Source: a virus. Taken from it: 64,000 bases of DNA. The stretch lies in IMG/VR virus record IMGVR_UViG_3300044797_000098, positions 1 through 64,000 of that record. One strand, given 5' to 3'. Position numbers and translations under genes: made by a program. Of the stretch, positions 2,640 to 37,364 are shown one piece after another (position 1 is the stretch's first letter; each line of letters begins with the position of its first letter). The notes beneath the pieces were generated by a model. It saw only the letters and a list, made by a program, of their open reading frames with translations, had not been told where the DNA came from and searched no databases.

Positions 2640-2673
2640 CTCCGTGAATTATTTTTGTGTTGCATACGATTTT

Positions 2674-2702
2674 TCTCAACTTTCTACTACTAATGATATA
2701 TA
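2674..2702 (+). promoter_or_regulatory. Probable promoter of tnpB copy 2
   Basis: TATATA ends 8 nt before the ATG and is preceded by TTTCTACTACTA, which is also present before copy 3. The -35 (TCTCAA) is degenerate, so this promoter should be weaker than those of the other copies. Confidence 0.5.
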
Positions 2703-2710
2703 TACTTACG

Positions 2711-3829
2711 ATGCGAAGAACTTTTTCTTTCTATATGCTTGCTCCAAACGGATTTTTAGACTATCTAAAAACTTGTTCGGATATTTTTACTCGTCATGTG
2801 GAATGGGCATTTTCTAATAAATCTACTAATAAGGTTCAAGCACACAAAGACTTGTATCAAGTTATTCGTTCCGAATATCCAAACATACCTTCCAACATTT
2901 TACAAGCAACACGAGATCAAGCATTGGAAGCAGTTAGAAGATTGAAGTTCAAAATCAAACCTAAAAAGAAACCACATTCAGCGGTTAGATACGATGCCAG
3001 AACAATTACTCTTCGCGGTAATCTTTTGACTTTTTCGTGGTCAGGCAAACGAATTAGAACACTAATCAATTTACCACAACATTTTCAACAATACAAAAAT
3101 TGGAAGATGCAATCAGGAACTATTGGTTATGACAAGGTCAAAAAGCAACTAAAAATTAGCCTTATTTTTGAGGCACCAGATACGATACCTATTCAAAACT
3201 CAACAAGAATAGTAGGCGTAGATCGCGGATTATATAATATCGTCTCGTTGTCAGACGGTCAATTGTATAATGCGCGAACGGTAAGAAAAAAGAAACGCGA
3301 GTTTCTTTATACGAAACGACAACTCCAAGCAAAAGGCACTCGATCTGCTAAACGAAAACTAAAAGCAAGATCAGGTCGAGAAAAGCGGTTCAGCACGGAT
3401 ACCAATCATGTAATTAGTAAATGGTTAGTAAATCAGTCATATGATACATTCGTTTTTGAAGACTTGAAAAACATTAGCAAGCAACGCAAAGGCAAGGTAT
3501 TGAATGGATGGCTTTCTAACTGGACATTTTTTCAATTAGAACAATTCGTTTTGTATAAAGCATCAACATTAGGCAAACAGGTTGTCAAGGTAGATGCAAG
3601 ATATACAAGTCAAAAATGCTCTAATTGTGGAATTGTTGAAAAATCTAATCGCAATAAATCAAGATATTGTTGCAGTAAATGCGGATATATAGAACACGCT
3701 GATATCAATGCTGCAAAAAATATCAAGATGAATTATACTCTCTCGTTAGCAGTAATGAATAACGAGCAGGCACCAGTCAATGTGCCATATGTGTCGATAG
3801 CAATATTAGATACAAGCCCTTGCCTTTAG
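2711..3829 (+). CDS. tnpB: TnpB (IS200/IS605 OrfB), copy 2
   Basis: Start set at 2711 by alignment with copy 3 (MRRTFSF against MQRTISI); the reading frame is open further upstream. Of 372 residues, RuvC-I is in VGVDRG, RuvC-II in FEDLKN, the zinc ribbon is CSNCG/CSKCG, and RuvC-III is in HADINAAKN. The TAG stop lies inside the right-end hairpin. Closest relative here is the 36 kb copy, which carries an extra 24-residue insert. Confidence 0.93.
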   Translation: MRRTFSFYMLAPNGFLDYLKTCSDIFTRHVEWAFSNKSTNKVQAHKDLYQVIRSEYPNIPSNILQATRDQALEAVRRLKFKIKPKKKPHSAVRYDARTITLRGNLLTFSWSGKRIRTLINLPQHFQQYKNWKMQSGTIGYDKVKKQLKISLIFEAPDTIPIQNSTRIVGVDRGLYNIVSLSDGQLYNARTVRKKKREFLYTKRQLQAKGTRSAKRKLKARSGREKRFSTDTNHVISKWLVNQSYDTFVFEDLKNISKQRKGKVLNGWLSNWTFFQLEQFVLYKASTLGKQVVKVDARYTSQKCSNCGIVEKSNRNKSRYCCSKCGYIEHADINAAKNIKMNYTLSLAVMNNEQAPVNVPYVSIAILDTSPCL

Positions 3830-5528: not shown

Positions 5529-6179
5529 TCAAAACAGCCAATCAAAACCGATCTGACCCGATGGTGCGATCAGATTAACATTGGGCGAACCAATCGAAAC
5601 GCCAGCAGGAAGCGTGAATGCATTACCGAAGTTAGAAACGTTCGCATCAACGTGAGTAATGCCACCACGCAGGAAGAAACGAACATGACGACGAGAACCA
5701 AACTCTACGCCTAATAGGGCACTCTCATACGTATAAGAAACGGTTGGACTATTGTGGATTGATGGAATGGTTGATGGGAAAAAACCACCTGCTTCGCCAG
5801 TCAATGTAAGACCAACAGACGAGTTGAACGGATCAATTGTTGCATGTCCGCCAAGACCGGCACCAACATAATTCCAATTAGCATCCGCACCAAGTTTCAA
5901 CCAAGGCAACCAAGGAGAAACAAGAACACCAACCGATCCGCCAGTTGGAAACCCAATTGACGCGGATATACCTGCATGAAACTTGTATGGATTTGAACTG
6001 CTAATATCAGGATGATATTCCGTTCGATAGTTCGGTTGAACGGGTTCGGGAGCAACAGGAACCGTTGGAACAACAGGCTCCGGCGCGGGAACAACCAATG
6101 GTGCTTCTTGTGCAAACGCAGAGGAAGCAACACCAACAATGCACAACGCAATCAACGAACTAACGATCTTCCTATTCAT
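5529..6179 (-). CDS. Outer-membrane beta-barrel-like exported protein
   Basis: AAGGAG lies 8 nt before the ATG at 6179. A classical signal peptide (MNRKIVSSLIA..SSAFA-QE) is followed by a Pro/Val-rich linker and then alternating glycine-rich beta segments ending in an aromatic phenylalanine (DWLF), as in outer-membrane porin-like barrels. A phage-encoded barrel could change receptors or block superinfection; that role is inference. Confidence 0.7.
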   Translation of the reverse strand: MNRKIVSSLIALCIVGVASSAFAQEAPLVVPAPEPVVPTVPVAPEPVQPNYRTEYHPDISSSNPYKFHAGISASIGFPTGGSVGVLVSPWLPWLKLGADANWNYVGAGLGGHATIDPFNSSVGLTLTGEAGGFFPSTIPSIHNSPTVSYTYESALLGVEFGSRRHVRFFLRGGITHVDANVSNFGNAFTLPAGVSIGSPNVNLIAPSGQIGFDWLF

Positions 6180-11773: not shown

Positions 11774-12070
11774 TTATACATCAAACTCCAACAAACAAGC
11801 CAATGCACCAGTCGTCAATCGTTCCATCATCGGAACGGTCGGACGGGAATGAACTTCTTCCAATAGACTATGATCGACAAGCAGATCAAATCCATTGATC
11901 TTCTTCACGAGATCGAATGGAGTATGATCATCCAACGAGATCTCGTCTTCAATCAACTCATCATCATTGACATCGATGAACGGATCGCTTTCGATCTTCG
12001 CAACTGCCTTGAACTCTTGCGTTCGCTTTGCAGGACGAGGGGGTGTTTTTACTGATAGCAACGTTGTCAT
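11774..12070 (-). CDS. Acidic protein downstream of the CRISPR array
   Basis: About 98 residues (a longer start at 12079 is possible). Strongly acidic middle (VNDDELIEDEISLDD). Its transcript starts from a promoter at 12130-12158, and its leader contains the terminal degenerate CRISPR repeat. Position next to the array suggests a CRISPR-linked or anti-CRISPR-like role, but there is no recognisable domain. Confidence 0.65.
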   Translation of the reverse strand: MTTLLSVKTPPRPAKRTQEFKAVAKIESDPFIDVNDDELIEDEISLDDHTPFDLVKKINGFDLLVDHSLLEEVHSRPTVPMMERLTTGALACLLEFDV

Positions 12071-12090
12071 CTTAACCATTTCTCCATTTC

Positions 12091-12126
12091 GTCTCAATCT
12101 TTAGGGTGTTGAGCAACCGTTATACC
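12091..12126 (-). promoter_or_regulatory. Degenerate repeat R1 in the leader of the next gene
   Basis: The handle half matches the consensus exactly (GGTTGCTC...GATTGAGAC), but the first ten bases have decayed. A promoter directly upstream (12130-12158) would start transcription at about 12123, so R1 forms the 5' end of the mRNA for 11774-12070. The effector could bind or cut this leader. Confidence 0.6.
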
Positions 12127-12129
12127 TAC

Positions 12130-12158
12130 AATATACTCACACTATACAATTTTGTCAA
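12130..12158 (-). promoter_or_regulatory. Consensus promoter between repeats R2 and R1
   Basis: TTGACA and TATATT separated by 17 nt on the minus strand, inside the 62-nt interval between the two degenerate repeats. It drives R1 and the downstream gene. Confidence 0.75.
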
Positions 12159-12177
12159 GACTCACGTCATATAAACT

Positions 12178-12225
12178 TATGAGCCTGAGTTTCGATCTTA
12201 TAGGGCGTCGAACAACCATTACTAC
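12178..12225 (-). ncRNA. Candidate cas-regulating guide RNA (R2 plus seed)
   Basis: R2 keeps the handle by compensatory changes: consensus CTCAA/TTGAG is TTCGA/TCGAA here. The sequence right after it starts TCAGGCTCATA, an 11-nt exact match to the cas12 promoter (14465-14475). In known cas-regulating guides, a short seed match next to a PAM lets the effector repress its own promoter without cutting. Inferred, not demonstrated. Confidence 0.7.
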
Positions 12226-12549
12226 TCCTCTCAATCTTTAGGGTGTTGAGCAACCATTACTACATGATGGCATTCATCTTTTAGTTGATGGAGGATTGTC
12301 AGTCTCAATCTTTAGGGTGTTGAGCAACCATTACTACCTGATAGTTCTCACTGCATCGGAGCCGGATAATGCCGTCTCAATCTTTAGGGTGTTGAGCAAC
12401 CATTACTACCAACTTGATAACAAACGTATCTATGGAAAAGAACGATTAGTCTCAATCTTTAGGGTGTTGAGCAACCATTACTACCAGTGTCGAAAATTAC
12501 TTCGTGATTTCAACCACTTACGATAGCGTTTTCGAGCACCTCTTCCTGA

Positions 12550-12594
12550 CCCGTCTCTTGGCAACTATACTAACCCAAGAGACGGGTTTGTCAA
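12550..12594 (-). promoter_or_regulatory. Array leader promoter with 12-bp inverted repeat
   Basis: TTGACA (12589-12594) lies between the cas12 stop and the array, with a TATAGT-like -10 at 12564-12569 (19-nt spacing, longer than ideal). A perfect inverted repeat, CCCGTCTCTTGG/CCAAGAGACGGG with a 13-nt loop (12550-12586), covers the spacer and the start region. It could be an operator, or a terminator of cas12 lacking a T run. Confidence 0.55.
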
Positions 12595-12605
12595 GTGGCA
12601 CCTAA

Positions 12606-14402
12606 CTATGCGACTTCCATAAGGGTTTCCTCATTGCGAGCACCCTCGGGGGTTTTGGCGTCGCCTGACCGCTCGCGCTCAAGTCCGCGGTCAAGGATAT
12701 TGTTTGATGCATTCTCATCTCGATCATGTTCAACACCACAACCTTGACAAAAATACTTCAACATACCTTTGATATCATCATTGTAATAATGACATATTCC
12801 GCATTCTTTTGAAGTGCCACGAGCATCAACTTCGATATATCCTTCTGTCTTTCCTCTGCTACGCAATGCGTTCTTACACGCATTACGAAACTCACTTGGT
12901 GCAGTCAGTTGCCTATTAGTGCTTCCAGCATTACCTCGTGCAAGGTTAGACAGATTGATGTCCTCGAAAACAATCGAACCGTATTGATCAGCAAGTTTTG
13001 CTGCCAACTTACGATACTCTTCGTTTCGATATCCAACTCCGCGATTGCGTTGCGAAGAAGCCCACTGCCATAGATGGTGATCATGATATCTCCATCCCGC
13101 AATACCAGTTCCTTTTGTTAGTGTTTTCGTTTCTTTATTCCACGAACCACTAATACCATAAATCTCTTCATCTCCCGCAAAACGATTGGTTGACCATTGT
13201 TTCACCAATCTTGCAAGACGACCTTGCGATCTCCACTTATCCAAGTGTTCACATTCTTTCGTGAGCCATTCGGGCAAGTTTTCTTTTCCAGTCATCCATT
13301 CAACTAATGATTTACGAACAGCATCGAACTCCTTATCTCGAATGCTTTCGATTTCGTTAGCCTTTGATAGTGCTGCAATGACACTTGATGGGACACGAAT
13401 ATCCCATTCCTTATTATCAGTTCCTTTACCATATCCAATGCGAACCGATCCGTCTTGCATATCGCGCCAACCAAGATCAATACCAACGCACGATTGATTG
13501 TTGTGTGCAATTGTATTTTGATTGTCATTGAACGTAATAGACACCGTCCAATGTTCTCGTGCTCCAATCTTATTGCAACATACCTGTACAACCTGAATAA
13601 CGCTTCCAGTAGGAATATCACGATGATATACCATTGGAAACTCTGCCCAGATAGGCTTACGATCATTGTCGGTTCCAATACGGAGACGGAACAATCGCAA
13701 GTCTTTCTTACCAACCTTACGCATCGTTCCATCTACCTTTACAATTGGAGCAGGCATAGGAATGATCCGAACCATCTTGCTTGATGCTTCAATGCCAATG
13801 ACCTTATCAATAGGTTCATTGGGTTGAAACTGCTGAATACCAACACGACCTTCACCAAGATATGAACGGAAACGAGGATCATTCGGTTCAACACCATCAT
13901 ACAATGGCATCTTACGAGTTTTCTGAAACGCATCCTCAATCAACATATACGTTCCATACCACGGAGCAATATCACTCTTGCGAACCTCTGCAATCTTTAG
14001 GTTCGCTTGCTGATCAATAGCAGTTCGTTTTGCTTTGATATCCTCATTGCTACGAAGCAATCTGCGTGCTTCAATAAGTTTCGAGTTGATTTCTTTGCGA
14101 GCCTTCTTTGCATCCCTCAGTTCTTGCTTCATCTCATCGGTTGCAACGCGAGTGCGAGCATCCGCATTAGCTCGTTTGTTCCTCTTGTCGAACGCAATAA
14201 CCTTATCATCCGCTTCCTTTACTGCGACTTCCAGTTCAGGAATATCACCTGCTTGTCGTTCAATGGTTCGGATTTCATTTCTCCTCCATCGTTCAATCTC
14301 AATAAGTTTGTTTTGGTAATTGTGTCCCTTTCTAATCTGCTCCATAACAAGATCATGGTTCAGTGTGGGTGCCAGAAGTCCTAACTTGAAGGTGCGTGTC
14401 AT
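12606..14402 (-). CDS. cas12: Compact type V CRISPR effector (Cas12m/V-U-like)
   Basis: 598 residues. N-terminal WED/REC region with a long charged coiled coil (about 30-140), then a conserved-looking RF..YLGEGRVGIQ segment (178-190). The RuvC domain follows: D309 in GIDLG, E480 in FEDINL, a zinc ribbon (C534/C537, C552/C555) and D562 in the RDENAS motif. All three catalytic carboxylates are present, so the RuvC site looks intact. Length and layout fit Cas12m or other V-U effectors better than TnpB (about 400 aa) or the larger CasPhi; subtype is uncertain. It reads in the same direction as the array and has its own promoter. Confidence 0.88.
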   Translation of the reverse strand: MTRTFKLGLLAPTLNHDLVMEQIRKGHNYQNKLIEIERWRRNEIRTIERQAGDIPELEVAVKEADDKVIAFDKRNKRANADARTRVATDEMKQELRDAKKARKEINSKLIEARRLLRSNEDIKAKRTAIDQQANLKIAEVRKSDIAPWYGTYMLIEDAFQKTRKMPLYDGVEPNDPRFRSYLGEGRVGIQQFQPNEPIDKVIGIEASSKMVRIIPMPAPIVKVDGTMRKVGKKDLRLFRLRIGTDNDRKPIWAEFPMVYHRDIPTGSVIQVVQVCCNKIGAREHWTVSITFNDNQNTIAHNNQSCVGIDLGWRDMQDGSVRIGYGKGTDNKEWDIRVPSSVIAALSKANEIESIRDKEFDAVRKSLVEWMTGKENLPEWLTKECEHLDKWRSQGRLARLVKQWSTNRFAGDEEIYGISGSWNKETKTLTKGTGIAGWRYHDHHLWQWASSQRNRGVGYRNEEYRKLAAKLADQYGSIVFEDINLSNLARGNAGSTNRQLTAPSEFRNACKNALRSRGKTEGYIEVDARGTSKECGICHYYNDDIKGMLKYFCQGCGVEHDRDENASNNILDRGLERERSGDAKTPEGARNEETLMEVA

Positions 14403-14449
14403 TGGAGTTTTCTTTCGTAGTTGAGTGTTGTTGTCTCTTGCATACCACC

Positions 14450-14478
14450 AATATAATCACGCCCTATGAGCCTGACAA
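14450..14478 (-). promoter_or_regulatory. cas12 promoter and seed target site
   Basis: TTGTCA (14473-14478), 17 nt, TATATT (14450-14455) on the minus strand; the start falls about 35-40 nt before the cas12 ATG. The 11 bases TCAGGCTCATA (14465-14475) overlap the -35 box and spacer and match the sequence after repeat R2, with TTG on the PAM side. Confidence 0.8.
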
Positions 14479-36155: not shown

Positions 36156-37364
36156 ATGCAACGAACGATCTCTATCAAAATTGACGCACCAGCAGAGTTT
36201 TTAGATTACCTAAAAGCTTGCAACGAGCTATACAGCAGGTATGTTGAATGGTGTTTCGAGACCAAGAGCTACAATAAGAATAAATCTCATACCGAGCTAT
36301 ATGAAAAGTTTCGTCAGGAGTTTCCAAGTATCAATTCTGCCACCATTCAGTGTATTAGAGATAATGCACTTGAAAGCGTCAAGGCATTGAAATTCAAATT
36401 CAAGCCGAAAAAGAAGCCACATTCTCATATTCGTTTTGATAAGAGAACGATCGCTCTTCGAGGTGATCAACTATCGTTTGCATGGTCAGGTGATCGTATC
36501 AAACAGATCATAAAGATACCAGAGTTTTTCAAAAAACGATATGGATCTTGGAAGTTTCAGGCAGCAACAATAGGCTATAATAAGCATAAGAAGCAATTCG
36601 TTGCTAATCTGATTTTTCAATCAACTGCTCCGCAGGAGCTTCGCTCTTCTGCTCCGCAGGAGCTTCGCTCTTCTGCTCCGCAGGAGCTTCGCTCTTCTTC
36701 ACCTGAAAAGAAAGGTGATCGTGTAGTTGGTATCGATCGTGGACTGTATAACATAGTGTCTCTATCTGATGGTTTCAAGTATGCTTCCAATCAGGTCAGA
36801 AAAGTGAAACGAGAAGTCTTGTTTCTCAAAAAGCAACTTCAAACAAAAGGCACCCATAGTGCTAAACGCAAATTGAAAGCGTTGTCTTGCTATGAGAAGC
36901 GGTTTAGTTTGAATGTCAATCATATCATCAGTAAATTGTTAGTTTCGTTGCCATACGATATTTTTGTTCTCGAAGACTTGAAAGGTATTCGTAAGCAAAA
37001 ATCAAAAGGCAAACGACTAAACAAGTGGCTTGCTAACTGGTCATTTTGGCAATTAGAGGCTCTTCTGGGATATAAGGCAGAGATATTTTGCAAGCAAATT
37101 GTCAAAGTCGATGCTCGATATACCAGTCAAAAGTGCTGCAATTGCGGTCAAGTAGAAAAAGCCAATCGTGATGGCTCACATTACCACTGTGAGCGTTGTG
37201 GATTTAGGTGTCATTCGGATACGAATGCTGCTAAAAATATCCGCAATAACTATCTCATCTCTGCTGCTGAAAAACAGAAGGCAGAGCAGGCTATGTGTCA
37301 ATTAGCCGAATGCTTCGTATCGAAAGATACAGAAACAAGCCCCGTTGCTTTTAGCACGGGGTAA
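36156..37364 (+). CDS. tnpB: TnpB (IS200/IS605 OrfB), copy 3, with repeat insert
   Basis: 402 residues, close to copy 2. RuvC-I in VGIDRG, RuvC-II in LEDLKG, zinc ribbon CCNCG/CERCG, RuvC-III in HSDTNAAKN. Three tandem units of the 24-nt repeat (36625-36698) add 24 in-frame residues, APQELRSS three times, just before RuvC-I; copy 2 has a short linker there. Catalytic residues are retained, so the insert may be tolerated. Confidence 0.93.
   Translation: MQRTISIKIDAPAEFLDYLKACNELYSRYVEWCFETKSYNKNKSHTELYEKFRQEFPSINSATIQCIRDNALESVKALKFKFKPKKKPHSHIRFDKRTIALRGDQLSFAWSGDRIKQIIKIPEFFKKRYGSWKFQAATIGYNKHKKQFVANLIFQSTAPQELRSSAPQELRSSAPQELRSSSPEKKGDRVVGIDRGLYNIVSLSDGFKYASNQVRKVKREVLFLKKQLQTKGTHSAKRKLKALSCYEKRFSLNVNHIISKLLVSLPYDIFVLEDLKGIRKQKSKGKRLNKWLANWSFWQLEALLGYKAEIFCKQIVKVDARYTSQKCCNCGQVEKANRDGSHYHCERCGFRCHSDTNAAKNIRNNYLISAAEKQKAEQAMCQLAECFVSKDTETSPVAFSTG
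36625..36698. repeat. 24-nt palindromic repeat, three tandem copies
   Basis: Units at 36627-36650, 36651-36674 and 36675-36698, identical to the copies at 6.7-7.4 kb. Confidence 0.92.

Follow-up and report, generated by a model that had tools for sequence, protein, structure and literature searches.

A candidate self-repressing guide at the end of a phage-borne type V-M CRISPR array

INTRODUCTION

CreR guides, which have partial complementarity to a promoter, are known in CRISPR types I and V-A (PMC13131331, PMC12737573). In type V arrays, extraneous crRNAs (ecrRNAs) stem from the last repeats, and terminal repeats are usually expected to bear disruptive changes that block these extra crRNAs (PMC13187072).

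Cas12m, the effector of type V-M, processes pre-crRNA within the repeat (PMC11013384). Cas12m proteins that have been tested bind DNA in a PAM-dependent manner and silence from promoters (PMC11013384, PMC10442227), and those with H-D-D, N-D-D or D-E-D triads bound DNA and blocked transcription with no cutting (PMC11013384). Cas12m2 recognises TTN and forms a 12-bp R-loop intermediate and a full R-loop of 17 bp, the state to which robust binding is tied (PMC10442227). PAMs differ among Cas12m proteins, with both T-rich and C-rich motifs represented.

Here we analyze a Cas12m locus in a phage genome. The stretch studied, referred to as the window, comprises 64,000 nucleotides (positions 1 to 64,000) of virus record IMGVR_UViG_3300044797_000098, and all coordinates refer to it. 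An initial annotation, made from the sequence alone, had proposed that a divergent repeat of this locus carries a short guide to the promoter of the effector gene. We know of no CreR case in type V-M or in a phage-borne system, and the literature searched held no published one.

RESULTS

The effector belongs to type V-M

The gene at the center of the locus is the following:

12606..14402, minus strand: cas12m, 598 aa, type V-M effector with RuvC residues D309, E480 and D562 (phmmer, PADLOC, AlphaFold)

A phmmer comparison with PDB sequences returned the Cas12m entries 23vw (1.1e-47), 23vu (3.6e-30) and 8hhl (1e-21). PDB Cas12m matches ranged from 1e-47 to 1e-14 and spanned the full length of the protein (residues 6-570). 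PADLOC called Cas12u1 (V-U1) at 2e-86. For the AlphaFold model of the 598-aa protein (pLDDT 84.7, pTM 0.59), the four best fold matches in the PDB were all Cas12m (8hhl, 8hio, 8pm4 and 8hhm). The catalytic triad is D-E-D, and D309, E480 and D562 are invariant or nearly so among phage relatives. By sequence, fold and array features, the effector is Cas12m of type V-M (formerly V-U1). The earlier proposal of a phage-borne type V system is borne out, with homology to Cas12m along the whole effector.

Cas12m genes with an array directly downstream are widespread in phage contigs (L005-L127; ∼60–70 distinct loci), and one contig (G004, locus L052) has two Cas12m genes. The window also contains three TnpB-like genes (∼390–400 aa), at 6-1190, 2657-3829 and 36156-37364.

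The array ends in a divergent repeat that retains its structure

Behind cas12m, on the minus strand, lies an array of four 36-nt repeats and three spacers, followed after 2 nt by a divergent repeat, R2. The elements, all assigned from sequence, are:

12567..12594, minus strand: likely array promoter, TTGACA-16-TAGTAT
12449..12484, minus strand: array repeat A1, the first repeat, 36 nt
12374..12409, minus strand: array repeat A2
12302..12337, minus strand: array repeat A3
12228..12263, minus strand: array repeat A4, with its last base changed from C to G and a 2-nt gap, no spacer, before R2
12189..12225, minus strand: R2, divergent last repeat, with five substitutions and one insertion relative to the consensus

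Compared with phages and plasmids, the spacers of the window gave weak or off-seed matches only, and no convincing protospacer. In the likely promoter of the array, the -10 box is enclosed by a perfect 12-bp inverted repeat, CCCGTCTCTTGG/CCAAGAGACGGG (12550-12561 / 12575-12586). The sequence CAAGAGAC is present in the cas12m leader too, and the inverted repeat may be a protein operator.

The repeats share their architecture (pseudoknot partner, stem, loop, stem, AC) with the A. silvanus repeat GTAGCAACGCCTAGCTCAGGGGCTTGAAAACTGAGAC and with dozens of phage arrays. In R2, four of the substitutions make up two double compensatory pairs (C-G to U-A and A-U to G-C) that keep the stem, and the fifth converts a pseudoknot pair to G-U, with the pseudoknot kept. 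Given five random substitutions, the probability of at least two compensated pairs with the stem intact is 8e-5. Because the stem is kept by compensatory change, crRNA processing of R2 is plausible; R2 is a structurally competent last repeat, from which a crRNA is predicted. Stem-keeping divergence of trailer-end repeats was also seen in loci L009, L015, L036, L037, L048, L056 and L064. Since compensated divergence of this kind recurs in other phage arrays, it does not set R2 apart.

The sequence following R2 matches the cas12m promoter

Three further features define the match:

12178..12188, minus strand: positions 1-11 (seed) of the R2 guide, TCAGGCTCATA (from sequence)
14450..14478, minus strand: cas12m promoter, TTGTCA (14478-14473)-17-TATATT (14455-14450), 10/12 match to consensus
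14465..14475, minus strand: candidate target, the same 11 nt as R2 guide positions 1-11, with 5' TTG at 14476-14478 (from sequence)

R2 (12189-12225, minus strand) ends in GAAAC and is adjoined, with a gap of 0, by TCAGGCTCATA at 12188-12178. With a slash at the repeat boundary (12189/12188-12178), the minus strand reads ...AAGATCGAAAC/TCAGGCTCATA AGTTTATATGACG... there. A second copy lies at 14475-14465 within the cas12m promoter, upstream of the cas12m ATG at 14402; here the minus strand (14478-14450) reads TTG/TCAGGCTCATA GGGCGTGATTATATT. The initial annotation was right on both points, the gapless junction at 12178-12188 and the recurrence of the same 11 bases at 14465-14475 in TTGTCA-17-TATATT. 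The base 5' of the two copies is C and G, respectively, and the 12th base is A and G. As the flanking bases differ at both ends, the match is exactly 11 nt long and runs from guide position 1.

In the whole virus record (406,470 bases), TCAGGCTCATA occurs three times. The third copy, at 251465, is flanked by CAT and lies in a coding region, and one-mismatch copies genome-wide likewise fall in coding sequence. The R2 guide and the cas12m promoter hold the only intergenic copies in 406 kb, so a wider protein regulon is not seen. A protein-operator regulon for TCAGGCTCATA was rejected, since the near matches are in coding sequence.

These observations are consistent with R2 acting as a one-repeat, CreR-like guide that represses its own cas12m promoter, the favored though tentative reading, to which we assign a probability of roughly 0.47. 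In its favor, the match starts exactly at guide position 1, the site is in the core promoter, and the chance expectation at the locus is low (7e-4 to 6e-5). Against it stand the predicted R-loop of 11 bp, shorter than the 17-bp state of robust binding by Cas12m2, and the fact that the match is seen at the window locus only (0/71 others).

Two features that had been read as support carry less weight. The TTG next to the target, taken as a type V PAM, is T-rich and lies where a PAM should, 5' of the match. But these three bases also begin the -35 hexamer TTGTCA, and the PAM-like motif and the position in the promoter are therefore not independent evidence. The stop after 11 nt had been interpreted as allowing repression without cleavage. 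While the length is exactly 11, Cas12m proteins that have been tested do not cut, so a short match is not required against self-cleavage; it would set a weak, reversible block. That the effector belongs to a family of natural transcription blockers makes repression more plausible than it would be without that knowledge. The R2 guide region can fold on itself (ACUCA...UGAGU), but no better than shuffled sequence.

The cas12m promoter resembles a second promoter next to R2

Beyond R2 lies another promoter:

12130..12158, minus strand: P_R1, TTGACA-17-TATATT, between R2 and the solitary repeat R1 (from sequence)

The -10 regions of P_R1 and the cas12m promoter have 16/20 bases in common (TGTGAGTATATTGTAGGTAT / CGTGATTATATTGGTGGTAT), and among 496 promoter-like pairs in the window these two have the closest -10 flanks (10/14 bases). 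Genome-wide (406 kb), the -10-region pattern is found with no mismatch at these two promoters only; no wider promoter class for the -10 block was found in the genome. This likeness, which the initial annotation had missed, suggests promoter duplication or co-regulation.

Because this second shared block at the -10 region is found nowhere else in 406 kb, duplication of a promoter piece has to be taken seriously as an alternative to the guide reading. Promoter DNA from one of the two places, the cas12m promoter and the R2-R1 gap, could have been copied to the other, or the two sites could share a locus-specific operator, the contact with R2 being incidental in either case. TCAGGCTCATA and GTGAnTATATTGnnGGTAT would then be two blocks common to both promoters, and they do occur in the same order and, in non-coding sequence of the genome, at no other place. 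Yet 3 nt separate the blocks in one case and 36 nt in the other, requiring a 33-nt indel, and TCAGGCTCATA overlaps the -35 box in one promoter, whereas in the other the box follows 20 nt further downstream. Moreover, further copies of such an operator are absent from 406 kb, and the start of the match exactly at the repeat end is not predicted. We regard duplication or a shared operator as somewhat unlikely.

The match is strong for the locus and moderate for the family

With a first-order background, six guides of the window are expected to produce 7.4e-4 matches of 11 nt in the 220 bp upstream of cas12m with any PAM, or 5.6e-5 with a TTN PAM. For R2 alone, with TTN and a 40-bp core promoter, the expectation is 1.3e-6. 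The numbers change when the family is considered. Across 635 guides from 46 related loci, 0.14 matches of at least 11 nt to the region upstream of the locus's own cas12m are expected, and across 1276 repeat-like units of 72 loci, 0.42 (∼0.08 with TTN); in both cases R2 was the only one seen. The significance of the match is thus strong locus-wise and only moderate family-wise. The earlier statement that the combination is unlikely by chance holds for the locus, but it is weakened by the family-wise count and by the PAM not being independent.

Other guides of the window were compared with its own genome. The R1 and A3 guide seeds with TTN had zero sites. The A1 seed had three sites, versus two for a reversed control, and was attributed to chance.

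Alignment scans of viral contigs identified ∼90 phage Cas12m loci, the nearest 39% identical in protein. A match between a guide and its own cas12m promoter was found in 0/71 other phage and plasmid Cas12m loci, and nine plasmid-borne loci inspected separately had none. Covariation was sought among these relatives, which are at most 39% identical and have promoters that are not alignable, and no R2-seed/promoter match turned up in the 71 loci; at such a distance, this absence does not disprove the guide reading, nor does it make the guide a trait of the family. The exact repeat pattern had no match in viral contigs, and neither a single-protein scan nor a scan of genome contigs found close relatives. 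The terminal and solitary guides of L009 gave no promoter match within its own 13.6 kb.

The lack of conservation of the match in any relative is what would be expected of a chance match, in which case the R2 guide would be a neutral extraneous crRNA containing trailer sequence, or would never be made. R2 is a singleton, and the family-wide expectation of 0.14 (635 guides) to 0.42 (1276 repeat-like units) leaves room for one. Considered alone, however, the locus should yield only 7e-4 matches, and 1.3e-6 when R2, TTN and the core promoter are specified. On balance, chance appears unlikely.

Repeats also occur in message leaders

Downstream of P_R1 are a solitary repeat and a small gene:

12091..12126, minus strand: R1, solitary repeat with which the P_R1 transcript begins (from sequence)
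11774..12073, minus strand: 99-aa gene with R1 in its leader (open reading frame)

R1 ends 11-20 nt ahead of the likely start of the 99-aa gene, and P_R1 is a strong promoter by sequence. The 99-aa protein appears acidic (by eye); it had no family match, and no relative was found. R1 could be a Cas12m-responsive leader, and the 99-aa protein could be a regulator or inhibitor of Cas12m.

Repeat units or arrays upstream of the cas12m start were observed in other phages, at 5929-5976 in L015/L016, 5944 in L053 and 5589-5929 in L054; the L053 leader copy has no clear pseudoknot partner. Locus L009 (IMGVR_UViG_3300032954_000043) has a second repeat class, AACGGTATCTCAATACCTT...TTGAGAC, with compensatory changes relative to the array repeat and copies at 5939-5969, 3073, 3504, 7047 and 8357. 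One solitary copy, in the leader of cas12m, directly follows a -10 box and is 29 nt from the ATG. Two others are solitary elsewhere, and related ones are found within the cas12m gene and at the end of the array, as its last repeat. Loci L015, L051, L067, L074 and L077 have solitary copies of the array repeat several kilobases away from the array, on the cas12m strand.

The leader repeats of L009, L015/L016, L053 and L054 suggest that the cas12m message may be regulated by its own repeat. Given that pre-crRNA is processed by Cas12m at a site in the repeat (PMC11013384), a plausible RNA-level feedback would be for Cas12m to bind or cut leaders of this kind. It is very improbable that this accounts for the window, with Cas12m binding or processing R1 as a hairpin in the leader of the 99-aa gene and R2 having no role: repeat units do end 20-45 nt upstream of the cas12m start in L009, L015/L016, L053 (degenerate) and L054, R1 is placed likewise ahead of the 99-aa gene, and processing within the repeat is documented (PMC11013384), but the cas12m leader of the window has no repeat, and in L015 and L054 the upstream repeats are part of arrays running into cas12m. 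A broader reading, that two modes exist, with the R2 guide silencing the cas12m promoter here and a leader hairpin letting Cas12m bind or cut its own mRNA in other phages, seems unlikely.

DISCUSSION

We propose that R2 serves as a guide for repression of cas12m. Transcription of the array would yield one extra crRNA from R2, its guide being the trailing TCAGGCTCATA... and not a real spacer. Cas12m loaded with this crRNA would recognise TTG plus TCAGGCTCATA in the -35/spacer region of the cas12m promoter and form a short R-loop of ∼11 bp, which would hinder RNA polymerase with no cutting. Negative feedback would follow: by analogy with CreR, free Cas12m would lower its own synthesis, and crRNAs of the array would compete it away from the promoter.

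If true, neither type V-M nor a phage-borne system would have had a cas-regulating guide described before, and the effector in this case would be one that blocks transcription by nature. It would mean that the 'waste' crRNA of a terminal repeat can be retained for regulation and that, within a virus, a CRISPR system that does not cut can be an autoregulated gene switch.

The system resembles the characterized type V-M systems of Allomeiothermus silvanus, Gordonia otitidis and Mycolicibacterium in having a single effector of ∼600 aa, a putative DNA-binding silencer, with the array directly downstream of its gene. The repeat is likewise tracr-less, ends in TGAGAC/GAGAC, and has a 3' stem and a pseudoknot partner. 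In contrast to those systems, this one is carried on a 406-kb phage genome and has only three spacers, and its effector is ∼30% identical to theirs.

Compared with CreR of types I and V-A, the likeness lies in a crRNA-like RNA (predicted here) whose repeat is not one of those serving the normal spacers, in its partial match to a cas gene promoter, and in predicted autorepression without cleavage. The sequence contains a crRNA-like unit, in that R2 is compatible with the effector and its guide has no further array repeat after it. It also contains seed-side complementarity to the promoter, 11 nt from position 1, with a putative PAM, the 5' TTG in the -35 box. The differences are that the effector is Cas12m (V-M), the system is phage-borne and the repeat stands at the end of the array; the match is present in the window phage, and conservation was not found among 71 other loci.

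CreA of CreTA is similar in that a crRNA-like guide with a partial promoter match is held by the effector, as predicted here. The target in this phage is, however, the cas gene itself, and no toxin was found: the matched promoter drives cas12m, and genome-wide this is the sole intergenic site for the R2 seed.

Finally, R2 resembles the source of an ecrRNA, as a last repeat whose crRNA would have a guide that is not a spacer. Whereas ecrRNAs are deemed wasteful and are usually blocked, the structure of R2 is kept, and its guide matches the promoter of the effector.
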